DNA from: Lagierella massiliensis
Lineage (GTDB): Bacteria; Bacillota; Clostridia; Tissierellales; Peptoniphilaceae
Assembly (NCBI RefSeq): GCF_001407835.1
Contig: NZ_CYUO01000004.1
Location: forward strand, 14,739-78,738
Length of the DNA stretch: 64,000 bases
Direction: 5' to 3'
This document shows, piece by piece, positions 26,122 to 42,170 of this stretch. Each line of letters opens with the position of its first letter. Within the stretch, counting starts at the first letter, position 1. Both the position numbers and the translations under genes were made by a program. Under the pieces are notes generated by a model. That model worked only from the letters and a program-made list of their open reading frames with translations. It had not been told where the DNA came from and made no database searches.

Positions 26122-29100
26122 TTAATTCACATTAGCAATACTACTGTCCCCACCTAAGATTATAGAGTCTTTTATCTTCTTTTCTCTTAGGTATTCTTTT
26201 ACAGATACTGGTACGGTTTCTTTTTCTATCAAGATTATTGGTGCGTTTTCTTTCTTTGATAGGTATGATGCTATTAGTGCATCTGCGTAGGTTCTTCCGT
26301 TTGCAAAGATTACTTTTTCTGGGTTAGTGTTAACTCTCTCTGCTAATTTTAGTGCTGTTTCTACTCTTGTTCTTCCTGCTATTCTTTCTACTGATAGTCC
26401 ATCTTTTTGTAGTTTTGAGATTACTCCTTCTGATACTTGTTGGTTTCCTCCTACTACGATAACATTTTTTATTCCCCATTCTTTGATGGCTTTTTCTGTA
26501 ATGCTATTTAATGAACTGTCTCCTGTTAATAGTATTGGTATGTTCATCTTTGCTGCTAAGCTTCCTGCTGTTAATGCGTCTATGAAGTTGTAGCCGTTTG
26601 CAAGGATGATGTCTGTCTTGTTAGTAGAGTTTCTTCTTATTTCTTCTCCAAGTTTTACTGCTGTTTGGAATCTGTCTTTTCCTGCTGTTCTTTCTACTTC
26701 TACTCCCATTTGTTCTATTTGTTTTTGTACTTTTTCTGAAATTACTGAGTCTCCTCCTGCGATTATTATCTTCTTTGGTTGTAGTCTCTTTATTTCTCCA
26801 AGTACTTCTTGAAGTATTGTGTCTTTTTCTACAAATAGTGTTGGTGCGTTTATTGCTATTCCAAATGGTGATGAGGTAAGTGAGTCTATCATTTCGCTAC
26901 TTGATGTTAATACTATAGTGTCTGCTTGTTTGTATAGTCTCTTGCTTACTTCTACTGCTGTTATTTGACGATTCTTTCCTGATATCCTTGTTGAGTTTAT
27001 TTTTTCAAATACTTCTTTGAAGGTATCGGTGTTTTTGATTTCGTTATCTTTTTGTTCTGGTTCTGTTGGTGTTGGTTCGCTTGGTTCTGTTGGTTTTGTT
27101 GGTTCTGTTGGGTCTGTTTCTTCAACTTTTTCAACTACTACTGGAACTTCTACTATTCTCTTACTTCCATTAGGGAAGGTTACTTCAACTTTTCCTGTAT
27201 ATTCTCCAGCTACATTTGTATCTATATTTGGTTCTGTTATGTCTTTTACTTTTGAACCTTCTGGTAGATTTTTAATGTTGTCTGTTAGGTCTATCTCTTC
27301 TCCCTTTTTAACTACTTCTTTTTCGATGTCGGAAGCTTTTATTTCTGGAATTTCTTCTATTGGAGTTCCTGGAATTACTATCTTTTCAACTACTACCGGA
27401 ACTTCTACTATTCTCTTAGTTCCATTAGGGAAGGTTACTTCTACTTTTCCTTTGTATTCTCCAGCTACATTTGTATCTATATTTGGTTGTGTTATGTCTT
27501 TTACTTTTGAACCTTTTGGTAGATTTTTAATGTTATCTGTTAGGTCTAGCTCTTCTCCCTTTTTAATTACTTCTTTTTCGATGTCGGAAGCTTTTATTTC
27601 TGGAATTTCTTCTATTGGAGTTCCTGGAATTACTATCTTTTCAACTACTACCGGAACTTCTACTATTCTCTTAGTTCCATTAGGGAAGGTTACTTCTACT
27701 TTTCCTTTGTATTCTCCAGCTACATTTGTATCTATCTTTGGTTCTGTTATATCTTTTACTTTTGAACCTTCTGGTAGATTTTTAATGTTGTCTGTTAGGT
27801 CTAAATCTTCTCCCTTTTTAACTACTTCTTTTTCGATATCTTCTTTCTTTATTTCGGGAATATTATCATCTTTAAATACAATAGCTATCTTTTCAACAAT
27901 TATAGAATCTAAATCAAAAGATACTATATTTTTTGATTGGGTAAATTTTAATTCTTCTATTTCGTTATTCGGTTTAACTCTATAAACATGCTCAACTTCT
28001 TTTTCTGTAAGCATATCTCTATTTATTTTGAAATTACCTAAAGCTAATTTAGATATTTCGCATCTGAAAGGATTTATTACTTTTAATTGTAATGTTTGAA
28101 CATCTTTATTTGCTAATTCATCTATTTTTTTTGTATCAAATATATTTGTATTAAGTTCAAGGTTTTTAAAGTTTAATCCTGTAACCTTTGTTCTTCCTGT
28201 ACTACAAACTATTGTTGTATCATTCTTATGTTCTTGCCCTTTATCAACTAATTTAAATTCTACTACTTGATTGCAATTTGTATGATCAAAAGGGAATTTC
28301 CCTATTTTAGTTTCCCAATAAAATCCATCAGCAGGTTGCTTATCCTTTACTACTAAAGGAAATGATTCTATCGCATACTTATCGGATTCAACTATCACCA
28401 TATAGGTAACATCCTCTATTAAATCTGTCTCAACAAAGCCTTGTTGATTACTTGTTAGTTCTAAAGTTTCAAAATCACTTACAAGTTTAAATTTTAAATT
28501 AGGTATAGTTTCTCCATTGTATTTGGCTGGAATTCTTATTGGGTGTCTATAAGAGATATTCTTTCCTTCTTTTTCGAAAACTGTTAAATAATTTATTTCC
28601 CCATTTTTAAAATCTTTAATTATTGAATTATCTTCATATTGCTTGATGTAAAGATTTTTCATATGATAAACATCATCTTTTAATGAAAGAATGTATTTAT
28701 TTCCCTCTATTAATTCCAATTCTGGTAAATATTGTACTCCATTTTCATTTATTGATTTGAATTCTTTTACGAATTCTTGATTTGTTGAATCAAACAAAGA
28801 GAAATTAAGTGACTTTTCAGTTTTTAATTCTTCGTTATTTATTTGAGCTCTTATTGGAGTTTTCTTTGTTTTTACTATAATATCACTAAAAACACAAGTT
28901 CCATCTCCACAACCACTATCATGTCCTGGGTTTTCTTCTTCTGAAGTAATCAGCGATAAATTTAAAATTCCTCCAACAGGACATCCTACAAGTAATTCCA
29001 TAGGATCTTCTTTAGATATGGATTCCGAAGCAAATGGTATAGATATCTCTATTTTGTTTTTTATCTTATCCTTAGGAATTGTTATTATTAAGTCTTCATT

Positions 29101-30654
29101 GTTAGAAGTTACCTTAATATTACTCTTATCTAATTTTTCAGCAGTTTCATTATAGATATTTACAAAATCTTTTATTTCTCTAAATGTTCCAAACAAACTG
29201 TTTAAGTCGTTTATCTCAAAAACTTCTTCGTTAAAGCTTAACCTTTTAGAAGAATCTATTCCTATTCTTTCTCCTCCAACAGAAAACATAGGATTTGCTA
29301 TTTTATATTCAATAGTTTCATTATTTTCCTTAACTTCATTTGCAACTATCGCTTTATTGATTTTTTGATTAACTGCAACAAAAAGTCTAGGTGTTTCACT
29401 ATCTATTTGTGCTTTTAAAGAAGAAAAATCAATAATATTATTATCTGAAAGTTCCATTTGTTCTATTAGACAATCTTGTAAAGAACTAACATCTTCTATA
29501 TTATTATCTTTTCCTTTTAAATCATTTAAATTTGTTAAGGATTTGATAGGTCTTATATCTTTAACAAGGTTATTTGAAAAATCTATACCTTCAAGTTTAT
29601 TTAGTGAGCTTAATGCACTTAAATTTTCAATTTTATTGAATGAAACATCTAAGTATTCTAAATTTAAAAGGTTCTTTAAAGCACTTATATCTTTAACAGA
29701 ATTTTTGTGAATAGATAGAAAAGTTAACTTTTTAAGATTTGTTAAAGCACTTATATCCTCAATAGAGTTTTCTCTTAAAGTTAAATCAGTAAGCTGTGTG
29801 AGCCCTGATAGAGAATCTATATTTTGTATCTCATTATTATCTAAACTTAAATCTTCTAAGTTAGTAAGTTTTGAAAGAGGTCCAATATCTTTAATTTTGT
29901 TATTATTTAAATGAACTGTTGTTAAATTAATAAGTTTTGATAAGGGTTCAATGTTTTCAATATTATTTTCCCTAATATATAATTTTTTTAAGCTTACTAA
30001 ATCTTTCAAAGAGCTTATATTCTTGATTTTATTATTATCTAAGTACATCACTTCTATATTATTTAATCCCTTAACTGAACTAATATCTTCTAAGTTTTTA
30101 TCAGATACATTCAGCCTTTTTAAATTTTGAAGACTTTCTACTCCTTGTAAGCTAACTAACCCATTATTATAAGAAGAAACTTCTTCTAAGTTTTTTAAGT
30201 TATTTATTATATTAAGACTTTCTAAATTGAGTCCACTTAAATAAATTTTATTTAAATTTGTTAACCTACTTATAGCACTTAAGTCTTTGCTATTAACTCC
30301 TGATACCTGTAAATCTTCTAAATTTGTTGCACTTTCAATGCCTGATAAGTTTAATATTTCAACAGAATTATTTAATCCATCAGTAATACCTCTTAACGAA
30401 AGCTTCTTCAGATTTAGCATATCAGCCTTAGTTGGATTATAATTTGATTTAGTTTCTTTTGGTAAGACTTTACTCTTATCAAATAGATTGTTTTTACGTT
30501 TTAATTCACTTACAACTTGCATTCTTACATTGTCATCTCCAAAGACAACTTTGTCATCAACAGGATCTTCAGCAGCTTTAGAGACAGATACTCCTATTAA
30601 GCTAGGTAAAATCATTGCTAAACTTAATAGGATAGACAGTAATCTTTTTTTCAT
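26122..30654 (-). CDS. LRR - Rib-like repeat - CWB2 surface protein
   Basis: A 1510-residue secreted protein. A signal peptide (1-27) is followed by about 17 leucine-rich repeats of 21-22 residues (about 70-420; pattern LxxLxxLxLxxNxIxDIxxL, SDS22/internalin-like). The middle (about 420-920) is beta-rich and unassigned, and includes a Cys-containing CGDGTCVFSD segment. Residues about 925-1175 hold three 85-residue Rib/alpha-like repeats (IEKEVVKKGEELDLTDNIKN ... FPNGTKRIVEVPVVVEK). These are nearly identical in DNA at a 255-base period. A TEPTKPTEP linker leads to three CWB2 repeats (about 1216-1510) for attachment to wall polysaccharide. The LRR region suggests protein binding, perhaps a host ligand. 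RBS AGGAGG lies close upstream. Confidence 0.9.
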   Translation of the reverse strand: MKKRLLSILLSLAMILPSLIGVSVSKAAEDPVDDKVVFGDDNVRMQVVSELKRKNNLFDKSKVLPKETKSNYNPTKADMLNLKKLSLRGITDGLNNSVEILNLSGIESATNLEDLQVSGVNSKDLSAISRLTNLNKIYLSGLNLESLNIINNLKNLEEVSSYNNGLVSLQGVESLQNLKRLNVSDKNLEDISSVKGLNNIEVMYLDNNKIKNISSLKDLVSLKKLYIRENNIENIEPLSKLINLTTVHLNNNKIKDIGPLSKLTNLEDLSLDNNEIQNIDSLSGLTQLTDLTLRENSIEDISALTNLKKLTFLSIHKNSVKDISALKNLLNLEYLDVSFNKIENLSALSSLNKLEGIDFSNNLVKDIRPIKSLTNLNDLKGKDNNIEDVSSLQDCLIEQMELSDNNIIDFSSLKAQIDSETPRLFVAVNQKINKAIVANEVKENNETIEYKIANPMFSVGGERIGIDSSKRLSFNEEVFEINDLNSLFGTFREIKDFVNIYNETAEKLDKSNIKVTSNNEDLIITIPKDKIKNKIEISIPFASESISKEDPMELLVGCPVGGILNLSLITSEEENPGHDSGCGDGTCVFSDIIVKTKKTPIRAQINNEELKTEKSLNFSLFDSTNQEFVKEFKSINENGVQYLPELELIEGNKYILSLKDDVYHMKNLYIKQYEDNSIIKDFKNGEINYLTVFEKEGKNISYRHPIRIPAKYNGETIPNLKFKLVSDFETLELTSNQQGFVETDLIEDVTYMVIVESDKYAIESFPLVVKDKQPADGFYWETKIGKFPFDHTNCNQVVEFKLVDKGQEHKNDTTIVCSTGRTKVTGLNFKNLELNTNIFDTKKIDELANKDVQTLQLKVINPFRCEISKLALGNFKINRDMLTEKEVEHVYRVKPNNEIEELKFTQSKNIVSFDLDSIIVEKIAIVFKDDNIPEIKKEDIEKEVVKKGEDLDLTDNIKNLPEGSKVKDITEPKIDTNVAGEYKGKVEVTFPNGTKRIVEVPVVVEKIVIPGTPIEEIPEIKASDIEKEVIKKGEELDLTDNIKNLPKGSKVKDITQPNIDTNVAGEYKGKVEVTFPNGTKRIVEVPVVVEKIVIPGTPIEEIPEIKASDIEKEVVKKGEEIDLTDNIKNLPEGSKVKDITEPNIDTNVAGEYTGKVEVTFPNGSKRIVEVPVVVEKVEETDPTEPTKPTEPSEPTPTEPEQKDNEIKNTDTFKEVFEKINSTRISGKNRQITAVEVSKRLYKQADTIVLTSSSEMIDSLTSSPFGIAINAPTLFVEKDTILQEVLGEIKRLQPKKIIIAGGDSVISEKVQKQIEQMGVEVERTAGKDRFQTAVKLGEEIRRNSTNKTDIILANGYNFIDALTAGSLAAKMNIPILLTGDSSLNSITEKAIKEWGIKNVIVVGGNQQVSEGVISKLQKDGLSVERIAGRTRVETALKLAERVNTNPEKVIFANGRTYADALIASYLSKKENAPIILIEKETVPVSVKEYLREKKIKDSIILGGDSSIANVN

Positions 30655-31573: not shown

Positions 31574-31602
31574 ATAAAAACCCACCAGTGAGGTGGGTTT
31601 TA
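31574..31602 (-). terminator. Terminator of the ECF/ABC operon
   Basis: AAACCCACC (31578-31586) pairs with GGTGGGTTT (31592-31600), with T tracts on both strands. It lies about 80 bases after the last gene of the operon and just outside the IS. Confidence 0.8.
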
Positions 31603-31679
31603 AAATTCAAAAATACAAAGAAATTTAAAATAAGTAGAATGTCTTTCTTAGTTGTGGATTTGGTTCAATTATAAACTTT

Positions 31680-33044
31680 TTACAATTCATAAATCTCATT
31701 TGCAACTTCGTTCAAAAATTCTATATCATGGGAGACTACAAAAATCATTTTATCTTTATTTCTATATTTTTTGATTAATTCCGATATTTTTATCATATTT
31801 GAATAATCCATACCACTTGTAGGCTCGTCGAAATAGAGAAACTGAGAATCTTTACACATAACAGATGCTATTGCAAGTCTTTGCTTTTGCCCTCCCGATA
31901 AACTCATCGGATGTCTTTTGGTAAATTCATCTATACCTAAATCTTTTAATATGATTTTTGCCTTTTTCTCGTCAAAATTCTTTACTCCTAAGCTAAGCTC
32001 GTTGAATACTTCATCTGTAAATAATTGATGGTTTACGTCTTGCATAACAAGTGAAGAGTTTTTTAGTCTTTCTTTTTTAGATAGCTTCTCTCCCTTAAAA
32101 TAAATTTCTTCTTTTGATTTTTTCTCAAGACCTATTAAACATCTTAAAAGCGTTGATTTTCCTTGTCCATTGAATCCTATTATGCCATATATTTTACCAA
32201 GTTTAAACGAAATGTCTTTTAAGCTTAAACACTCATCATCAGTAAATTTGTACCTAAGATTTTTTATCTGATACTCTCCGCCTTCTTTTAAATAAGGAAC
32301 TTCTAATTTACTTAATTCTTTATCTCTTAAACTTAAAGCTTTCAATTCATTTTTATCAAACTTTAAAAATTCATTTATTGTATAAATTTTTTTAATCTTA
32401 CCTTTGTCAATTATAAAGACACGATCAACTACGTCCATCAAATAATAAATTCTATGCTCAGCTGCAATTATGTTTATTCCTCTCTCTTTTAGAATTTTAA
32501 GCATCTTCGTCAAAACATCTATGCTTTTAATATCCAAATTTGATGAAGGTTCATCCATAACTATGATCTTTGTGCCTGCTATATAAGAAGCGGCAATGCA
32601 AAGTATTTGTTTCTCACCGCCGGATAGATTAAATATATTTCTGTTCAAAAGATTTTTTATCGGGAATATCTCAAGCATATCCTTCAAACGCCTGTCCATC
32701 TCTTCTCTTGCAAGACCAATATTTTCTAAATAGAACAATAATTCTAATGTCGTATTAACATTAAAGAAATATGTCTTAGGGTTTTGAAAAACAGTTGAGA
32801 CAAGCATTGAGATTTGATAAAGCTCCAAATCTTTTATATTTTTACCATCAATAATTATTTCGCCCTTTGTCTTTGCGTTATCATACCTTACAGCTAAGCC
32901 ATTGATTGAATTTATTAAAGATGACTTACCACTTCCACTTTTTCCTGTAAATAGCACGCACTCTCCCTCGGCTATGGATAGTGATATATCATCTAATATA
33001 TGCTCTTCACCATAATCAAGACTTAAATTTTTTATTTTTACCAT
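31680..33044 (-). CDS. Fused ECF transporter ATPase (two ATP-binding domains)
   Basis: A 454-residue protein with two ABC ATPase domains in one chain, equal to EcfA1 plus EcfA2. The first has Walker A TGKSGSGKSS (about 33-42), LSGGEKQIL and MDEPSSNLD. The second, from about residue 245, has GFNGQGKST, LSGGQKQRLA and FDEPTSGMD. It energises the EcfT and S subunits encoded just upstream. Its start overlaps the EcfT gene by 7 bases. It is the last gene of a five-gene operon that begins at a Fur-like box. Confidence 0.92.
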   Translation of the reverse strand: MVKIKNLSLDYGEEHILDDISLSIAEGECVLFTGKSGSGKSSLINSINGLAVRYDNAKTKGEIIIDGKNIKDLELYQISMLVSTVFQNPKTYFFNVNTTLELLFYLENIGLAREEMDRRLKDMLEIFPIKNLLNRNIFNLSGGEKQILCIAASYIAGTKIIVMDEPSSNLDIKSIDVLTKMLKILKERGINIIAAEHRIYYLMDVVDRVFIIDKGKIKKIYTINEFLKFDKNELKALSLRDKELSKLEVPYLKEGGEYQIKNLRYKFTDDECLSLKDISFKLGKIYGIIGFNGQGKSTLLRCLIGLEKKSKEEIYFKGEKLSKKERLKNSSLVMQDVNHQLFTDEVFNELSLGVKNFDEKKAKIILKDLGIDEFTKRHPMSLSGGQKQRLAIASVMCKDSQFLYFDEPTSGMDYSNMIKISELIKKYRNKDKMIFVVSHDIEFLNEVANEIYEL

Positions 33045-33724
33045 ATTAAGCCTCCTACAATAAGTCCAGCAACCGCTAATATATAAACAAAATCAATTAG
33101 CTGTATCTTTACAGGGATATATCTGGTCTTAGCAACTGGACTTTCTATTGCCTTTGTTTCTGCCGATTTTGCAATGTCATCTGCAATGTTCGAAGATATA
33201 ATTAGTAGTGGAACTGAAACATATTCAAGATATCTAATTGGATTTTTAAAATTTATCCCTCTTACTCTCATAGCCATTTTTATGTTCTTCTTCTCTTCTT
33301 TAAATGATGGGAAAAATCTAAACATAACCGCAATAGGTATGGATACATTCTTTGAGATCTTAAGCTTATCCATTGACGAAATTATTGTGCCTACGTCAGA
33401 AGTTTTTATCATAAGACTAGCAGCCATAAATGGCAAAATAAACATCCTAATCACAATAGGTATACTTAAAAACATCTTAAGTAAAGGGTTTAATGTGGAT
33501 AGAACCATAAAATTTGGTAGCGAATAAAGTATCCCACATAAAACTATCCATTTTAAAAGTGTTTTTTTGTATCCATTCAAATAAAGCAAAATACCAATAA
33601 GACAAACAATCGCTAGCTCAAAACGAATGTTTATGCTATGCATAACAGTTAATCCAGTAAAGAATACAACTAAAATTTTACTGATAGGATTGGGATTAAA
33701 ATAGGTCTTTGAATAAGCAGGCAT
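33038..33724 (-). CDS. ECF transporter T component
   Basis: A 228-residue membrane protein with about five helices and the characteristic coupling motif KMAMRVRGINF (near 150), which matches the A-x-R-x-R-G signature that EcfT uses to contact its ATPases. It joins the S component to the ATPase. The start overlaps the S gene stop by one base. Confidence 0.88.
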   Translation of the reverse strand: MPAYSKTYFNPNPISKILVVFFTGLTVMHSINIRFELAIVCLIGILLYLNGYKKTLLKWIVLCGILYSLPNFMVLSTLNPLLKMFLSIPIVIRMFILPFMAASLMIKTSDVGTIISSMDKLKISKNVSIPIAVMFRFFPSFKEEKKNIKMAMRVRGINFKNPIRYLEYVSVPLLIISSNIADDIAKSAETKAIESPVAKTRYIPVKIQLIDFVYILAVAGLIVGGLIW

Positions 33725-34305
33725 TATACAATGCCCGCTTTACTAAAGTGTTTTTTCAATAAAGCCTTGCCTATATATGCTCCAATAAATCCCCCTACAA
33801 TTGCTCCTAAAGCTACTAAAACCATATGAGGATATGTTATTAGTTTTTCCAAGGCTACTACATAGTCATCCCCCATCATCCTACAATACTCTATATATAC
33901 TTCTTTTGCCAAAAGCATTTGCATCATAGAACTACAAATCCATGTGCTAAAAATGGTATAAGATATCATATTGTATTTAAATGAATTATAGTTTCCAATC
34001 TTTCTAATTAACTCTGCTATTATCATTACTATAAGCGATAGAACTAAAACTACGTAGGTATGACCAGCTGCAAACATCACAAGTGGTGATATCATTCCGA
34101 AAATAAATAATGCCCATGGCTTTTGAACTTTAGTCATAAATAACATAACTACAGTTCCTGCAATTATGCCCAGAACTGCCGGATATATTAAAAACAATAT
34201 TGGAATCATTCCCATCATGCCAATACCAAACATCAAAACGAAATAAATTACGCCAAAAACACCGATAGTTACTAAATCTTTCACATTTAATTTTTTATTA
34301 TCCAT
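33724..34305 (-). CDS. ECF transporter S component (Trep_Strep/MptD-type)
   Basis: A 193-residue membrane protein with about six helices and a typical S-component start (NVKDLVTIGVFGVIYFVLMF). It resembles the Trep_Strep family of putative ECF substrate-binding subunits. The substrate has to be inferred from context, where co-transcription with two siderophore/heme-type ABC half-transporters under a Fur-like site points to an iron compound. Gene order matches the siaDE-siaFGH part of the Streptococcus pyogenes heme locus as I recall it. Confidence 0.8.
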   Translation of the reverse strand: MDNKKLNVKDLVTIGVFGVIYFVLMFGIGMMGMIPILFLIYPAVLGIIAGTVVMLFMTKVQKPWALFIFGMISPLVMFAAGHTYVVLVLSLIVMIIAELIRKIGNYNSFKYNMISYTIFSTWICSSMMQMLLAKEVYIEYCRMMGDDYVVALEKLITYPHMVLVALGAIVGGFIGAYIGKALLKKHFSKAGIV

Positions 34306-34315
34306 TTTATACCTC

Positions 34316-36037
34316 CTAATAAATAAATTCTTCTGCCATTTTTGTCTTTTTTATTAAATTCTTGTAAACTTTTGATTTTTGTAAAAGCTCTTCATGTTTG
34401 CCTTCACTTTCTACTCTTCCGTTTTCAAGAACTACTATCTTGTCAGCATTTTCTATGGATTTCATTCTGTGTGAAATGATTACAACAGTTTTATCTTTAA
34501 TTAAATTATTTAAAGACTCTTGAATTTTTTTCTCATTGTCAACATCAAGGCTGGCTGCTATCTCATCTAAGATCAAGATTGGTGCATCTTTTAAGAAGGC
34601 TCTGGCTATTGATAACCTTTGTCTTTCTCCTCCTGATAGCTCAGCTCCGTTCTCACCAATAACTGTATCGAAACCCTTATCCATTTTTTCTATAAAATCT
34701 GTGCAGTTTGCAAGTTTTGCTGCTCTTTTAACTTCTTCGTCACTTGCATCTTGCTTTCCGATTCTAATATTTTCCATAACGCTTTGATTAAAGAGAACCA
34801 CATCTTGGAAAACAATAGACACCTTATCAAAAAGAGATTCTGTTGATATTTCTTTTATGTCTTTACCATCAATTAAGATTTGTCCATCTTCATAATCATA
34901 AAGTCTCGATATAAGTTTCAAGATAGTTGTTTTACCGCAGCCACTTGCACCTACCAAAGCAGTAACCTCTCCCTGCTTAGCTTTAAAGCTTACACCATTT
35001 AAAACTTTTGCGTCTTTATTGTAGTCAAACTCAACATCTTTTAGATCAATATCGAATTTTTTTAATTCATAGTCTTCGCCTTCTTGAAGATTTTGATTTT
35101 GAATTTCTTTTAATCTTTCTATTTTGGGCGATAAATAAAATATTTCCATCAAGCCCTCTTTAGATGCATCTAGAGAGTCTTTTATCTTTATAGCCGCTAG
35201 TAAATATCCTACAAGGTAGAGAGCACTTATCTCTTTATTAATAATTAGATTTACGCCAACAAATATTACGACAGCAAGGGAAATAAAGCTAAATATTGAT
35301 GACAATGACATAGTTAAAATAAGTCCTATTTCTGTCTTTAAGTGCACTTTTTCACTTTTATCCATTTTTTCATATAGCTTTTCTTTCATTTTCTCTGATA
35401 AGCCATAGGCTTTAATCTCCATTTGCATTTCTATATTTTCTTGAAAGCTTTCTGAGTTTGCTCTCAAGACGTTATAATATTCTTTCTCTCCCTTAACTGA
35501 ATGTTTTTTAGACAAGGGGATAAATATAAAACTTAATATAGTTGGAATAATTACAGCTAAACCCATCTTGACATTGCTAATTAGCATCATGATAGATATT
35601 AGTGGGAAGAATAATACCATGCCGCCCACTTTTGGTATTGCGTGGCTCATTGCATGCTCTATACCTTCAATATCAGCCATGATTGTTTGTGATAGGTCGG
35701 AAATATCATGCTTAGAAAAGTATGACAGAGGTAGTTTTGATAAATTCTCTGCTGTCCTTATTCTTAAGTCCGCACTTTCTTGATAGGTTGTGCTATATAA
35801 TTTATCGTATTCGATAGAAAGCAAAATATACATTGCTATCAAGGTCAAAACTGAGAATACTATATAAAATCCCTTGCTTTTGCCCATATTTTCCAAAACT
35901 TCCTGAGCAAAAATCATAAGTAATATGGCAGGAAGCATGTTTATACAATAAACGAAAAATGAGGACAGTGTTGCTTTAGTTAGATTTCTTGCTCCCTTAT
36001 CTGTAAGAGCAAATCTTTTTTTATAAAACTCCTTCAT
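34316..36037 (-). CDS. ABC transporter, fused membrane/ATPase half-transporter 2
   Basis: A 573-residue half-transporter: six membrane helices (about 20-300), then an ATPase with Walker A GASGCGKTT (near 365), signature LSGGERQRLS and Walker B ILDEIAASLD. It pairs with the gene upstream as a heterodimer. Such pairs (YbtPQ, IrtAB, SiaDE) have an exporter-type fold but import iron-siderophores or act with heme. The ATG at 36037 has GGAGGG 6 bases upstream and overlaps the previous gene by 17 bases. A frame extension to 36061 lacks an RBS. Confidence 0.9.
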   Translation of the reverse strand: MKEFYKKRFALTDKGARNLTKATLSSFFVYCINMLPAILLMIFAQEVLENMGKSKGFYIVFSVLTLIAMYILLSIEYDKLYSTTYQESADLRIRTAENLSKLPLSYFSKHDISDLSQTIMADIEGIEHAMSHAIPKVGGMVLFFPLISIMMLISNVKMGLAVIIPTILSFIFIPLSKKHSVKGEKEYYNVLRANSESFQENIEMQMEIKAYGLSEKMKEKLYEKMDKSEKVHLKTEIGLILTMSLSSIFSFISLAVVIFVGVNLIINKEISALYLVGYLLAAIKIKDSLDASKEGLMEIFYLSPKIERLKEIQNQNLQEGEDYELKKFDIDLKDVEFDYNKDAKVLNGVSFKAKQGEVTALVGASGCGKTTILKLISRLYDYEDGQILIDGKDIKEISTESLFDKVSIVFQDVVLFNQSVMENIRIGKQDASDEEVKRAAKLANCTDFIEKMDKGFDTVIGENGAELSGGERQRLSIARAFLKDAPILILDEIAASLDVDNEKKIQESLNNLIKDKTVVIISHRMKSIENADKIVVLENGRVESEGKHEELLQKSKVYKNLIKKTKMAEEFIY

Positions 36038-37775
36038 TTGAAACCCTCCATTCATTCGCACTGTTAAACATCTCTTGCAGCCTCTTATAGCTTGTATCTC
36101 TTGACATTAATTCTTTGTCAGAGCCTCTTTCTATAATTTTTCCACTATCCATCACAATAATTTCATCAAGATCTTTAATTGTAGATAGCCTGTGTGCTAT
36201 CATGATAACTGTTTTATCCTTCATAAGATTTTTGAAAGCTTTTTGTAGTTCATACTCGTTATCTGGGTCAATTGATGCCGATGCCTCATCCATAATAATA
36301 ATTTTGGAATCCTTTAAAATCGCTCTAGCAATTGCAATTCTTTGTTTTTCTCCACCAGATAAATAAACTCCTTTTGAACCTATAATTGTGTTTTCTCTTT
36401 CTGGGAATTTATCTAGTATCAAATCGCATCCTGCTAGTTTTAAGGCTTTCATAACGTCATCTCTTGCCGCTTCTTTATTAGCTAAAGCTACATTGTCATA
36501 AATGCTTTTCTTGAATAATTTTGAATCTTGAAAAACAAAGGAAATGGCTTTAATTAAGGCTTCGTCAGAATATTCACTTATTGCTATGCCGCCTATCTTT
36601 ATGCTTCCTTCGTTAACATTGTAAAAACCTGATATAAGTTTTGCTACCGTTGATTTGCCTGATCCAGATGAACCGACTAGTGCATAAGACTTTCCCTCTT
36701 CTAATTTAAAGGATAGATTTTCAATGACAGCTTTATCATTATAAGCAAAGCTTACATTCTCAAATTCTATATTATAGTTTTTAAAATTATTGACATTACC
36801 ATGCACTAATTTATCTTTTTGCATATCCTCGTATAGTGCCTCTAAAGTATCTACTGCATAATTGCCTTGAGAAATGTACATAGAGTACCACATCATTCTC
36901 ATAAATGAAACAAAGAGAACTCCTGATAAAAATAAAATCATTATAAGCTCAAGTAATATCATCTTGGTGCTGCCTAAACTAGTCATAAAATAAACTATAG
37001 GAATAATTAAAATTGCAATTAAACCAAAAAATAACCATTGATACAAAACATAAGGTTTTTTACAAGATAGTGAATAATCATAAGCATACTTTGAGTAATC
37101 TTTTATCGCCTTATAAAAGCTTTTAAATGACTCTACATTTGCTCTAAATATCTTTACTACCTGCATCCCTCTAACGTATTCAACAGTTTCAGCGCTTAGT
37201 TTAGATAGAGCTTCTTGGTATATCTGCATAAATTTTTGCTCGCCCATCATTGCCCCTAAAATTAAGCCGCCAATTATTGTAAGAGCAAGCAAGGTGATGC
37301 CAACCCTTATGCTTACTATAAAGCCAAGTGCAAGTACAAGCACGGGTGTAACTATTGCCTGAGAGCTATCAGGTATCATATGGGCTACTACTTGATGAGT
37401 TTGTGCGGCATTGTCATCTATAATCTTTCTTATTTGACCAGATGGGTTTAGGTCAAAGAACCTAAAACTTGCTTTCTCTAAGCCATCAATCCCTCTTTTT
37501 CTTAAATTTGTTTCAAGCCTAAATCCCAAGATGTGTGAAAACGTTGCTGAAACAATATAAAATATTGCTCCACTGGTTAGTGTAATAACTGATTTTAATG
37601 CTAAGCTCTCTGCGCCGGATAAATTTGAATTAATTATTAACTTATCTAGAAATTTGTAGATTAAATAATATCCATATACCGTAAGTACAGCAGATATGGC
37701 AGAAAAAACCATAGCTAAAACCCCAAGATGTTTTTTATCCTGTACATAAGCAAATAGTTTTTTGTAAATCTTCAT
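36021..37775 (-). CDS. ABC transporter, fused membrane/ATPase half-transporter 1
   Basis: A 584-residue half-transporter with six N-terminal helices, Walker A GSSGSGKST (near 370), signature LSGGEKQRIA, Walker B IIMDEASASID and the switch His (AHRLST). It is the first gene of the five-gene operon. RBS AAAGGAGAT precedes the ATG. The upstream gap to the divergent AraC gene contains the Fur-like box. Heterodimer with the next gene is inferred from overlap and family. Confidence 0.9.
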   Translation of the reverse strand: MKIYKKLFAYVQDKKHLGVLAMVFSAISAVLTVYGYYLIYKFLDKLIINSNLSGAESLALKSVITLTSGAIFYIVSATFSHILGFRLETNLRKRGIDGLEKASFRFFDLNPSGQIRKIIDDNAAQTHQVVAHMIPDSSQAIVTPVLVLALGFIVSIRVGITLLALTIIGGLILGAMMGEQKFMQIYQEALSKLSAETVEYVRGMQVVKIFRANVESFKSFYKAIKDYSKYAYDYSLSCKKPYVLYQWLFFGLIAILIIPIVYFMTSLGSTKMILLELIMILFLSGVLFVSFMRMMWYSMYISQGNYAVDTLEALYEDMQKDKLVHGNVNNFKNYNIEFENVSFAYNDKAVIENLSFKLEEGKSYALVGSSGSGKSTVAKLISGFYNVNEGSIKIGGIAISEYSDEALIKAISFVFQDSKLFKKSIYDNVALANKEAARDDVMKALKLAGCDLILDKFPERENTIIGSKGVYLSGGEKQRIAIARAILKDSKIIIMDEASASIDPDNEYELQKAFKNLMKDKTVIMIAHRLSTIKDLDEIIVMDSGKIIERGSDKELMSRDTSYKRLQEMFNSANEWRVSNEGVL

Positions 37776-37822
37776 AATCTTATCTCCTTTCTTTGATATT
37801 CCTTTTAGATTGGTTTTAGTAT

Positions 37823-37841
37823 AATGATATCAATTATCATT
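37823..37841. promoter_or_regulatory. Fur-like box between the ABC operon and the AraC gene
   Basis: AATGATA-TCAAT-TATCATT is a 19-base palindrome. The core TGATATCAATTATCA matches the 7-1-7 Fur consensus (TGATAATnATTATCA) at 12 of 14 positions. On the minus strand TATACT follows directly, a good -10 for the transporter operon. Repression by iron-loaded Fur is inferred. Confidence 0.75.
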
Positions 37842-37933
37842 CCATTTACAGTATACATTTGGTATAATCAGTAATGCAATAACTTGCTAAATATAAGGCT
37901 AATTGGAATATTGTCTAAAAGGGATAGTGTATT

Positions 37934-38926
37934 ATGACTTATTATGATTTTGTAAGAGAATATATGGAAGTAGATGAATGTAAAAACAATAGGAAATATT
38001 CAAGTGCAGGGTATACATTTTGTTGGAGTAAAGATGATTCAACTTATGCAGAAGGGCTTTATTGGTTTTATGAAGGAGATGGATTTATTATTGATGTCCA
38101 TGATTTTTATATCAAAGAAGAAGTAGTTCAAAATAGTACCTATAGTATGGCGGATTATGTTTCAATTTATTCAAGTTACATTGTCAGTGCAAATGGAGAA
38201 AAGTTTAATCCATATCAAACACTTACTGCAAACTCATTATGTACTTTTGACTTTGACAATATAAAAGACGATTTTGTTTTTTTATTACACGAGAATTGTT
38301 GTTATCTTGCTGTTTCCATTGGTTTTAAAAAAGAGCTAATAGAAAAACATTTATCATCTATTAACATTAATCCAGAGTCATTTTATGGGGCTTTACTTCA
38401 ACCAAATCAAATAATTCTTACAAAATCCTTAGAAAAAGTGGCAATGGAAATATTAAATTGTAAGATGGACTCTCCAGCCGCTGATTTTTTCTTTAAAGCC
38501 AAAGCAAATGAATGGGTAAGTATTGTAATCGACACCTACTTAAATAGGAAAAAATATAAAATTGAATCTGATGATAATAAAGCACTTGAAGATGTGGCAA
38601 GATTCTTGGATGATCATTTCGCCATGAATGTAAATCAAGAAACCCTTGAAAAAATATCTAAAATGAGTGGAACTAAATTAAAAAATTTATTTAAGGAAAA
38701 ATATTGTCAAAGCATTACAGAATACACCCAGAGAAAAAGAATGAATGTGGCTGAGACTCTTCTCTTAAATACCGAACTACCTATAAAGGAAATAGCTGAA
38801 TCTGTTGGATACACATCCCATAGCAAATTTTCTATTTATTATAAAAGATACAAGGGAAAGCTTCCTAGCGAGGTACGTGATTTAACTTGCAATCATCATA
38901 ATTTAAAATGCGAGTACTGTGATTAA
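37934..38926 (+). CDS. AraC-family regulator of the iron/heme-type transport locus
   Basis: A 330-residue regulator. The C-terminal AraC/XylS double helix-turn-helix (about 215-315) is clear: NQETLEKISKMSGTKLKNLFKEKY, and IKEIAESVGYTSHSKFSIYYKRYKGKLPSEVR. The N-terminal 200 residues are probably the ligand domain and contain a Cys pair (ENCCYL). The tail after the second HTH reads CNHHNLKCEYCD, a Cys/His-rich end that could bind metal. YbtA/PchR-type AraC proteins activate siderophore genes when the ferri-siderophore is bound. It reads divergently from the transport operon, as expected for such an activator. Confidence 0.88.
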   Translation: MTYYDFVREYMEVDECKNNRKYSSAGYTFCWSKDDSTYAEGLYWFYEGDGFIIDVHDFYIKEEVVQNSTYSMADYVSIYSSYIVSANGEKFNPYQTLTANSLCTFDFDNIKDDFVFLLHENCCYLAVSIGFKKELIEKHLSSININPESFYGALLQPNQIILTKSLEKVAMEILNCKMDSPAADFFFKAKANEWVSIVIDTYLNRKKYKIESDDNKALEDVARFLDDHFAMNVNQETLEKISKMSGTKLKNLFKEKYCQSITEYTQRKRMNVAETLLLNTELPIKEIAESVGYTSHSKFSIYYKRYKGKLPSEVRDLTCNHHNLKCEYCD

Positions 38927-38943
38927 TAAAAATTTAGTTTACC

Positions 38944-38996
38944 AGTTACACACCCATATCTTATGTGCGTCTAAATATATATATTGGTGTGTAACT
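38944..38996. repeat. Inverted repeat after the AraC gene
   Basis: AGTTACACACC (38944-38954) and GGTGTGTAACT (38986-38996) are perfect 11-base arms around 31 bases. No T tract follows. It may form the 3' end of the AraC mRNA or be a remnant of a small mobile element. Confidence 0.6.
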
Positions 38997-39376: not shown

Positions 39377-39389
39377 AAGGAGGATGAGT

Positions 39390-39803
39390 ATGAACTTTGC
39401 CACAAAATTAAAGGACTTAAGAATAAAAAAGAACTTAACTCAGGAAGAACTTTCTAAAAAATCTGGAATCTCTATAAAATCCATATCCAGGTATGAACTG
39501 GGTGAAACTGTTCCCCGTTCTGAAAAATATTATGAGAAATTAGCCAAAGCTTTAGATGTTGATAGCGACTATTTTCTTTCTCAAGAGACCAATTTTTTAC
39601 TTAATGTTAAAAAGGAATTTGGTTATAAGGGTGCAAAGGATGCTGAGGACATAGTCAATGGAGTAATTGGACTAATGGCTGGTGGAGAACTACCAGAGGA
39701 AGACAAGGCAACCATATTAAATGCTATGCAGGAAGCTTTTTATATGGCAAAGATTGAAAATAAGAAGTACACGCCGAAGAAGTTTAGAATTGAAGAAGAA
39801 TAA
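39390..39803 (+). CDS. XRE-family repressor of the damage cassette
   Basis: A 137-residue phage-type repressor. An N-terminal Cro/CI helix-turn-helix (about 1-62; LRIKKNLTQEELSKKSGISIKSISRYELGE) is followed by a helical C-terminus without an autocleaving LexA/S24 peptidase domain. It would therefore need the adjacent ImmA protease for removal. The ATG at 39390 lies 6 bases after GGAGG. The ATG at 39384 touches the RBS. Confidence 0.88.
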   Translation: MNFATKLKDLRIKKNLTQEELSKKSGISIKSISRYELGETVPRSEKYYEKLAKALDVDSDYFLSQETNFLLNVKKEFGYKGAKDAEDIVNGVIGLMAGGELPEEDKATILNAMQEAFYMAKIENKKYTPKKFRIEEE

Positions 39804-39832
39804 AATTGAAGTATTGTTGAAAGGAGGGTTTC

Positions 39833-40390
39833 ATGAGTAATCAAATATCAACAATATATGATGATGTACAAAATTTAATAAGCTTGCATGGCACCAGGGA
39901 CCCTCAAATTATTTTGCAAGAAAGAAATGTAACCCTTATTCCCTTCAAGGAAAAAACGAAGTTATTGGGAATGTACAAGGTCATTCTTAGGAATGAATTT
40001 GTGTTTTACAATCCATATGTTGATGAAAGGATTTTAAATATGGTCTTTGCCCATGAGCTTGGACACAATGTCTATCATGGCAATTTTGCTAAACATAAGG
40101 AAATTTTTGAATATGAACTTTTCAATATAACTAACTCCACTGAGCTTGAGGCAAATATTTTTGCTGCACATCTCTTAATTGACGAAGAGGAGCTTATGGA
40201 ACATATTTTACTTGGCGAAGATTACGAAGCTCTATCAAAAATTTTCAATGTAAACATCAATCTAATGATCTTTAAATTAAATGAAATGTATAGAATGGGC
40301 TATCCAATTAATCGGTTAGATTTGCCTAATAATAATCAGTTCTTTACTAAAATTGACGGAACCGATAAGAAAAACGAAGAGCTTTTTTAA
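39833..40390 (+). CDS. ImmA/IrrE-family metallopeptidase
   Basis: A 185-residue zinc peptidase with the HExxH motif in VFAHELGHNVYHG (near 76-88) and a downstream Glu-rich helix (STELEANIFAAHLLID) that supplies the third ligand, as in the M78 family. In ICEBs1 and in Deinococcus, proteins of this family cleave a repressor in response to DNA damage. Position between an XRE repressor and a Y-family polymerase supports that role here. RBS GGAGGG precedes the ATG. Confidence 0.92.
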   Translation: MSNQISTIYDDVQNLISLHGTRDPQIILQERNVTLIPFKEKTKLLGMYKVILRNEFVFYNPYVDERILNMVFAHELGHNVYHGNFAKHKEIFEYELFNITNSTELEANIFAAHLLIDEEELMEHILLGEDYEALSKIFNVNINLMIFKLNEMYRMGYPINRLDLPNNNQFFTKIDGTDKKNEELF

Positions 40391-40410
40391 AAGTAGTAGA
40401 AGGAGGGGTT

Positions 40411-41823
40411 ATGGGTATTATAGATTATTCTTTAGAACCAAAATCTGATATTGCTTTTGTGGATATGAAAAGTTTTTATGCCAGTGTTGAATGTGTTAAA
40501 AGAAATCTAAATCCTCTTACTACATCCCTTTGCGTAATGAGTAACTCAGACAATTCTTCTGGGCTTACCCTTGCCAGTAGTCCCACTTTTAAAAAAGTTT
40601 TTGGTAAGAAAAATGTTGGTAGAGCCAGGGATCTCCCCTTTGATATCCAAACGAGAAAGTTTTCTTTTGAAAATGCAAAAAATCAAAAATTGGATATTAC
40701 AAGGGATTACATTGACTATGTGGAAAGATGGGCAGAAAAGACTTTGATTGTCCCTCCTCGAATGAGCTTATATATTGAAGAAAACTTAAAAATTCAAAAA
40801 GTTTTTCAAAATTACGCTCCAAAAGATGAAATACATCCCTATTCTATTGATGAGTCATTTCTTGATTTAACAGGGTCTTTAAATTATTTTGTACCTAATA
40901 GGAACATGACTAAGAAGGATAAATTGGACTGTGTTTCTGCAAAGATTCAAAATGAAATTTGGAAGGAAACTGGTATCTATTCAACGGTTGGAATGAGTAA
41001 CTCTAATCCATTACTCGCTAAGTTGGCCCTTGATAATGAAGCTAAGACCACAAGGCAGATGAGGGCAAACTGGTCCTATGAAGATGTGGAAACTAAGGTA
41101 TGGAATATTAAAAATCTTACAAGCTTTTGGGGAATTGGAAGTAGAACTGCTACAAGGTTAAATAGACTGGGAATTTATTCCATTAGGGACCTTGCCAATT
41201 ATAATGTGGATATTTTGAAAAAGGAATTTGGTGTAATCGGTGTGCAGCTTTGGTTTCATGCAAATGGTGTTGATGAATCTAAGGTAAATGTCCCCTATAT
41301 AGCAAAGTCAAAAAGTTATGGCAATTCACAAGTACTACCAAGGGACTATGATAGTCAAAGTGAAATTGAAATAGTTTTAAGGGAAATGGCTGAACAAGTT
41401 GCCACAAGAATTAGAAAAAAGAATAAAAAAACTGGTCGAATTTCCATTTACATTGGTTTTTCATATAAGGAAGACATGAAGTCTATTAAGGCTCAAAAAA
41501 GTATAAATCCAACAAATTCTACAAATGTTTTATCGAATGAAGTAATAAAACTTTTTAGAGAAAGGTATAGAGGTGGTGCCGTAAGAAATATTGGTGTGAC
41601 CTATGGCAAATTAGTCGATGACAGTTTTTTTAATTATACTTTTTTAAATGATGTGGAAAAATTACAAAAACAAGAAATTTTGGATAAGACATTTGATGAA
41701 ATAAGAGATAAATTTGGTTATACTTCTATCCTTTCTGGATTTTCACTAATGGAAGGATCAAGAGTTATTGAAAGAAGTAAATTAATCGGCGGCCATGCCG
41801 GTGGAATGGACGGTATTATATGA
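40411..41823 (+). CDS. Y-family translesion DNA polymerase (UmuC-like)
   Basis: A 470-residue error-prone polymerase. AFVDMKSFYASVECV near residue 15 carries the first catalytic Asp, and YSIDESFLDLT near 148 the Asp-Glu pair. VGMSNSNPLLAKLALDNEAK and a helix-hairpin-helix (FWGIGSRTATRLNRLG) follow, then the little-finger domain. It matches the Gram-positive UvrX/UmuC-like group usually found on phages, plasmids and ICEs. RBS GGAGGGG precedes the ATG. YolD overlaps its stop by 4 bases. Confidence 0.94.
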   Translation: MGIIDYSLEPKSDIAFVDMKSFYASVECVKRNLNPLTTSLCVMSNSDNSSGLTLASSPTFKKVFGKKNVGRARDLPFDIQTRKFSFENAKNQKLDITRDYIDYVERWAEKTLIVPPRMSLYIEENLKIQKVFQNYAPKDEIHPYSIDESFLDLTGSLNYFVPNRNMTKKDKLDCVSAKIQNEIWKETGIYSTVGMSNSNPLLAKLALDNEAKTTRQMRANWSYEDVETKVWNIKNLTSFWGIGSRTATRLNRLGIYSIRDLANYNVDILKKEFGVIGVQLWFHANGVDESKVNVPYIAKSKSYGNSQVLPRDYDSQSEIEIVLREMAEQVATRIRKKNKKTGRISIYIGFSYKEDMKSIKAQKSINPTNSTNVLSNEVIKLFRERYRGGAVRNIGVTYGKLVDDSFFNYTFLNDVEKLQKQEILDKTFDEIRDKFGYTSILSGFSLMEGSRVIERSKLIGGHAGGMDGII

Positions 41824-42170
41824 TTGTAAGAGATTATCTTAACTATGAATCAGCAAGGAAATATGTGGATAGAGGAATGGCAAAATGGATGGGCTTTTTC
41901 ATTTCTGAACACACCAGTGCCCTATTACAAATGGGAAATGAAATAAATTTTTCAAATCAGATGAAGGAAGAAGAAATCCTTATGCTCTTGAGGCAAGTCT
42001 ACCTAAATAATCTTGAAATTATTTTATATACTAACGAGAGCTATAAACCATATATTGGCAAAATAATAGATCTGGAAAATTTAAGCATCTACTTTAGAAC
42101 TGAATCGGCAGTTAAGAAGATTCTATGTAAAAACATCATCAGATTAAGACTTTTGGAGAATGAATCATGA
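41820..42170 (+). CDS. YolD-like protein
   Basis: A 116-residue small protein of the YolD-like type, which sits next to Y-family polymerases in Firmicutes and is thought to take the place of UmuD as a partner. DRGMAKWMGFFISEH near the N-terminus fits the family pattern. The ATGA overlap with the polymerase and the next gene implies coupled translation. Confidence 0.82.
   Translation: MIVRDYLNYESARKYVDRGMAKWMGFFISEHTSALLQMGNEINFSNQMKEEEILMLLRQVYLNNLEIILYTNESYKPYIGKIIDLENLSIYFRTESAVKKILCKNIIRLRLLENES

Follow-up and report, generated by a model that had tools for sequence, protein, structure and literature searches.

In the 64,000-nucleotide stretch of the Lagierella massiliensis genome analysed here (contig NZ_CYUO01000004.1, positions 14,739 to 78,738 of the forward strand; hereafter the window) lies a 7.3 kb cassette of six genes, a candidate iron-uptake locus (Table 1). 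Two genes for half-ABC transporters, ABC1 and ABC2, are followed in the same direction by those for the S component, EcfT and EcfA-A' of an energy-coupling factor (ECF) transporter, and an araC gene reads divergently from them. A preliminary description, made from the DNA letters without database searches, had proposed this layout together with a 12/14 Fur-like box between araC and ABC1, and all six open reading frames, as well as the box, were found where it had placed them.

The ECF module and the half-ABC pair

Neighbouring operon genes either overlap or are separated by 10 bp, and a rho-independent terminator follows EcfA-A' (one found against 0.2 expected in the terminator scan), so that the five genes look like one transcription unit. 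For ABC2, an ATG at 36037 with GGAGG upstream is a more likely start than the GTG at 36061.

EcfT and two ECF ATPase domains adjoin the S gene, and by its domain content the module is assigned as an ECF transporter with a Trep_Strep/MptD-type S component. The S component scores far above the family cut-offs (201.1 bits against 28.7 for PF09605; 123.1 against 76.45 for TIGR02185), while the top NCBIfam matches of EcfA-A' are ECF ATPase models, with scores under the model cut-offs. A PDB sequence search with the S component gave no match. Its AlphaFold model (pLDDT 95.2) has a sole confident structural match in the PDB, the ECF S component 5edl (probability 1.00, E 5.9e-3). Among solved half-transporters, ABC1 matches best the YbtPQ structure 6p6i and next IrtA, whereas ABC2 is closest to Sav1866 and is not specifically YbtQ/IrtB-like. 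The proposal of a YbtPQ-type pair is thus borne out for ABC1 but not for ABC2. The window pair shares with YbtPQ and IrtAB the exporter-fold heterodimer, and differs from them in being joined to an ECF transporter.

Table 1. Features of the cassette and of related loci
Feature	Position	Strand	Details
EcfA-A'	31680..33044	-	454 aa; fused pair of ECF ATPase domains; two PF00005 domains
EcfT, transmembrane coupling protein	33038..33724	-	228 aa; PF02361 CbiQ 50.6 bits
S component, Trep_Strep/MptD family	33724..34305	-	193 aa; PF09605, TIGR02185
ABC2, half-ABC transporter, exporter-type fold	34316..36061	-	PF00664+PF00005
ABC1, half-ABC transporter, YbtPQ/IrtA-like	36021..37775	-	PF00664+PF00005
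AraC-family regulator	37934..38926	+	330 aa; PF12833 HTH_18 65 bits
Rho-independent terminator 3' of EcfA-A'	31577..31601	-	10-bp stem and T run
Predicted ABC1 promoter	37850..37879	-	TTGCAT, 18 bp, TATACT (weak -35); read from sequence
Fur-type box TGATAATTGATATCA	37825..37839	-	12/14 to 7-1-7 consensus TGATAATNATTATCA
Predicted AraC operator, copy 1, TCTAAAAGGGATA	37914..37926	+	found by phylogenetic footprinting of AraC-type loci
Predicted AraC operator, copy 2, GCTAATTGGAATA	37898..37910	+	degenerate; same direction as copy 1, at a spacing of 16 bp
Predicted AraC operator, copy 3, TCTAAAAGGAATA	37797..37809	-	in ABC1 leader; inverted orientation, conserved
MATE gene beside ECF module	L047:9509-10867		
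MATE gene beside ECF module	L081:7583-8938		
MATE gene beside ECF module	L107:7623-8978		
MATE gene beside ECF module	L110:11784-13112		

A conserved Fur-type box and a predicted AraC operator

The Fur-type box lies about 4 bp past the predicted start point of the ABC1 promoter. Taken alone it is weak. Sites with at most two mismatches to the Fur consensus are no more common in the genome than sites for a reversed control pattern (35 against 41), and a box in the ABC1 promoter alone has p ~0.02 in shuffles. We therefore rejected the score of the window box alone as evidence for Fur, and judged the box by its conservation. A consensus promoter scan did not return the predicted ABC1 promoter, and a 7-5-7 inverted repeat, AATGATA-N5-TATCATT, was dropped as a separate motif (37 sites against 33 for its control).

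The box is significant because relatives conserve it. Eight AraC-type copies of the cassette, the window included, carry it with 0-2 mismatches at -64/-65 from ABC1; those besides the window's come from Anaerococcus, Peptoniphilus, Urinicoccus and one Peptoniphilaceae metagenome-assembled genome, and together they are nearly all of the AraC-type copies in the Peptoniphilaceae. With a DNA similarity of about 90%, these copies are not independent, but the boxes of Aedoeadaptatus and S. ovis are. In Aedoeadaptatus and its near relatives, where the regulator is of TetR type, the 15-mer occurs with 0-2 mismatches at -30/-31 in six copies, four of them perfect, within promoters otherwise unlike that of the window; in S. 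ovis a perfect box stands upstream of the tetR gene. In the window's genome the FUR family is represented by one Fur-like and one PerR-like member; a search for a third, a possible Zur, found none. With a conserved 7-1-7 box in its promoter, the locus is a predicted member of the Fur regulon that would respond to iron, and the Fur control first suggested by the preliminary description gains support from the conserved box and the Fur-like gene.

Elsewhere in the same genome a box with one mismatch lies upstream of a DUF3793-flavodoxin operon (G000 C5:214590, L036), likely a further Fur target; flavodoxin is a typical iron-sparing gene. The feoAB promoter has only a three-mismatch Fur-like site.

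Alignment of the intergenic regions of AraC-type loci brought out a conserved element, TCTAAAAGGGATA, which we take as the predicted AraC binding site. It forms a direct repeat with a 16-bp period in most of these loci, and distant ones, whose ABC proteins are ~36-44% identical, have TCTATTCGGGATA repeats of the same period together with one inverted copy. With this layout, AraC may activate ABC1 by way of the upstream repeats and also regulate its own gene. The presence of a dedicated AraC regulator, also noted at the outset, is thereby strengthened, and the protein probably takes part in control of the operon; an araC gene accompanies the operon in roughly one in three relatives, the others carrying tetR.

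Horizontal transfer and exchange of parts

A search for the same gene set in other anaerobes, as the preliminary description had advised, found copies in several Peptoniphilaceae genera, and also in Streptococcus genomes, with 88-91% DNA identity. The two outer stop codons mark abrupt ends of the similarity (near 31678 and 38926-38945), and the flanks of different copies are unrelated except for one 690-bp patch over an IS200 region and one 62-bp patch. ABC1 is 94-96% identical at the protein level in most genomes with copies, yet the RNase J proteins of these genomes share only 56-69% identity with the one in the window's genome (Streptococcus, 45%; the window's own genus, 95%). Judged by S, the window copy resembles the one in Anaerococcus vaginalis (93% identity) more than the one in the sister species Mediannikoviicoccus vaginalis (85%). 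Closely similar cassette DNA with abrupt ends, set against low RNase J identity, shows that the cassette has spread by recent horizontal transfer between unrelated anaerobes and streptococci. A plasmid search with the S component gave only distant matches (30% identity), in Corynebacterium and Subdoligranulum.

An IS200-like Y1 transposase gene (PF01797; 30989-31441) directly adjoins the 3' end of the window cassette, and a patch related to this region borders the L053 copy at its araC end. The cassette of M. vaginalis (L054/L082) is broken, with ABC2 cut short beside three serine-recombinase genes and neither AraC nor ABC1 found in the stretch examined. In an S. mitis assembly (L083/L198) the cassette lies between RepA_N replication genes, with a C-5 cytosine methylase gene nearby.

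Comparison of 63 named relatives further shows that the parts of the cassette are exchangeable. A MATE pump of a single family (62-99% identity) occurs in 8 of the 63, its gene lying between those for ABC2 and S or beyond EcfA-A', and is lacking in the window copy. In S. ovis, P. indolicus and others (L090, L104, L105, L110, L199) the S, EcfT and EcfA-A' genes are kept, with S 68-74% identical, whereas the half-ABC pair has been swapped for a different one, ~32% identical. Since the MATE gene is optional and the ABC pair replaceable while S, EcfT and EcfA-A' stay together, these three form the stable core, and the exporter-fold pair and the MATE pump are its recurrent partners. The preliminary description had the locus standing alone. 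This is true in so far as surface heme receptors of the NEAT type are lacking (see below), but the cassette is a transferred block, and some of its copies also carry the MATE gene.

Three further arrangements were seen. In Criibacterium a FecCD/ATPase/Peripla_BP_2 importer lies directly 3' of the operon. A deletion in Peptoniphilus lacydonensis (L052/L080) joins a truncated ABC1 to the MATE gene, with ABC2 gone and the three ECF genes intact. Three streptococcal loci (L190, L192, L196) repeat the AraC-ABC-ABC-S-T-A plan of the window with ABC proteins ~50% and S components ~30% identical to those of the window, S belonging to a different clade.

Could the half-ABC pair, with or without MATE, instead export a drug or metabolite, beside a vitamin-type ECF importer, so that the cassette serves small-molecule resistance or trade rather than iron? 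The TetR regulators, the MATE neighbours, the exporter fold, the resemblance of ABC2 to Sav1866 and the substitution of an unrelated ABC pair beside a constant ECF core would all suit such a role. We nevertheless consider it unlikely, since Fur boxes are kept in two unrelated promoter types and in S. ovis, a FecCD importer is joined to one copy, and the equibactin and sia loci discussed below provide precedents for iron.

Ligand and proposed mechanism

What, then, does the cassette transport? Family and pattern searches of the window's genome found no NEAT protein (the same family search gave 12 matches in Peptostreptococcus, the positive control) and no FecCD importer, and thus no import system of the standard kind for heme or for siderophores. 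The absence of surface heme receptors, as claimed earlier, is in line with this, and the cassette is the only candidate for iron uptake found in the genome besides FeoB. One HemN_C match, of 386 aa, is not taken as evidence for anaerobic heme breakdown. A scan for the A-domain motif of nonribosomal peptide synthetases (NRPS), limited to flanking sequence of at most 9 kb in the 63 relatives and not extended to the window's whole genome, found none.

The closest parallel in plan is the sia operon of group A Streptococcus, in which siaDE-siaFGH stand beside shr, shp and siaABC and the sia genes are repressed by MtsR (PMC6593403); in one Streptococcus genome (L193) we find NEAT-containing Shr, Shp, Peripla_BP_2 and FecCD, then siaD-H. 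As in the window, two half-ABC genes are followed in the same order by S (PF09605), EcfT and fused EcfA, under iron-type regulation. The window, however, lacks shr, shp and siaABC, and has a Fur-type box and AraC in place of MtsR. A tree places the window ABC pair, ~18-19% identical to SiaD and SiaE, in separate clades with high support, and the S component, 32% identical to SiaF, is also in a separate clade. We accordingly dropped the idea that the locus is a sia ortholog: no orthologous SiaD, SiaE or SiaF is present, a NEAT receptor, Shp and HtsABC are missing from its surroundings, and no NEAT or FecCD protein occurs in the genome. Judged by these comparisons, the resemblance is architectural only, the locus working like sia in plan without being a sia locus, and the kinship to siaDE-siaFGH as first stated does not stand.

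Two other pathogen loci have a similar plan. In the equibactin locus of Streptococcus equi, the ABC importer genes eqbHIJ, needed for equibactin-linked iron uptake, lie beside a YbtPQ-like half-ABC pair, eqbKL, under iron-dependent regulation (PMC3672683). Compared by description, this locus differs from the window in its NRPS genes, its DtxR-like regulator and, from the paper's lettering, its gene order. In mptABC-mptDEF of Mycobacterium avium subsp. paratuberculosis, IrtAB-like exporter-fold ABC genes precede genes for MptD, from which the S family takes its name, for a cobalt-type permease and for an ATPase (PMC4298942); unlike the window, mpt is under zinc/FurB control and sits on an island that also bears a siderophore-like synthesis cluster, and no AraC is mentioned. 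The connections of these loci are with heme (sia), a siderophore (eqb) and zinc (mpt), and the shared plan therefore implies uptake of a metal chelate but not which one. A chelate of another metal, such as the zincophore proposed for mpt, is very improbable here. The architecture is common to both, and mpt is zinc- and FurB-dependent and adjoins a predicted cluster for siderophore synthesis (PMC4298942; PMC4132290), but the window box is of Fur type (TGATAAT-N-ATTATCA) and the genome, with its Fur-like and PerR-like genes, yielded no Zur-like one.

We conclude, with a probability of roughly two in three, that the locus is a Fur-repressed, AraC-controlled and horizontally mobile cassette for the uptake of a ferric chelate. 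When iron is plentiful, Fur bound to the box at the ABC1 start site would silence the five-gene operon. When iron is low, Fur would be released and AraC, probably sensing the imported ligand, would activate the weak ABC1 promoter through the direct repeats, while also tuning its own gene. The S component would capture the ferric chelate on the outer side of the membrane, and its import would be powered by the EcfT/EcfA-A' motor. The ABC1-ABC2 heterodimer would act on the same ligand, either as a second importer of the YbtPQ/IrtAB kind or as an exporter returning the ligand after release of its iron, a role that the optional MATE pump could share.

Several observations weigh against this interpretation. 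The window's own box carries two mismatches, the box is gone from the S. mitis copy L083, and no Fur box occurs within 200 bp in most TetR-type and many AraC-type distant copies; both the iron response and Fur binding are deduced from sequence. The similarly built mptABC-mptDEF responds to zinc through FurB/Zur, not to iron (PMC4298942). The cassette holds no biosynthetic or iron-release gene, and deletion of eqbKL left uptake unblocked, so that EqbKL may export (PMC3672683); together these leave the ABC pair as what may be an importer or an exporter.

Heme as the ligand would be a special case of ferric-chelate uptake, with the ECF part importing heme and the half-ABC pair and MATE dealing with heme or its toxicity. 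SiaF, like the window S component, belongs to PF09605 (PMC6593403), and both SiaFGH and LhaSTA are reported heme importers. LhaSTA of Staphylococcus lugdunensis, an iron-regulated ECF transporter proven to import heme, works without surface receptors (PMC7299338), which keeps heme in contention for the window. Compared by description, it is, like the window module, a Fur-boxed ECF transporter for iron acquisition without such receptors, but its transporter unit has no half-ABC pair or AraC, and only for LhaSTA is heme proven. No other type of heme importer emerged from the NEAT and FecCD searches, and the window S component has the invariant H186 as well as H82, which is invariant in its close family. 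We still regard heme as doubtful: the S component and the ABC pair are remote from SiaF and SiaD/SiaE, and the cassette has no heme-degrading gene. AraC-type control, moreover, is commoner among siderophore systems, as with YbtA and PchR. Of the iron or heme uptake originally proposed, iron is thus likely and heme is not established.

A xenosiderophore-like chelate is slightly favoured over heme, because of the AraC control, the YbtPQ-like half and the distance from SiaF. A bolder version of this, which we put forward tentatively, is a cassette for iron piracy: the S component, which falls in another clade than SiaF, would import the siderophore of other bacteria, and the exchangeable half-ABC pair and optional MATE pump would export the emptied, undescribed ligand. 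Such a cassette would be circulating among streptococci and the anaerobes of the urogenital tract, mouth and gut.

To our knowledge, iron uptake in Anaerococcus, Peptoniphilus and their relatives has been little studied. What the cassette adds to known systems is its mobility, its predicted dual control by Fur and AraC and its exchangeable parts; moving among unrelated human mucosal bacteria, it could shape competition for iron there. The compact window copy, with no neighbouring partners, is also a clean test case for what a half-ABC pair contributes to an ECF transporter.

On either side of the cassette the window holds further genes. A row at 39384-42170, comprising a Cro/C1-type helix-turn-helix protein, an IrrE-like M78 peptidase, a Y-family DNA polymerase and a small open reading frame, resembles the SOS modules of mobile elements. 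At 26122-30654 is the gene for a 1510-aa surface-type protein, with N-terminal leucine-rich repeats and C-terminal cell-wall-binding repeats, as recognised by eye.

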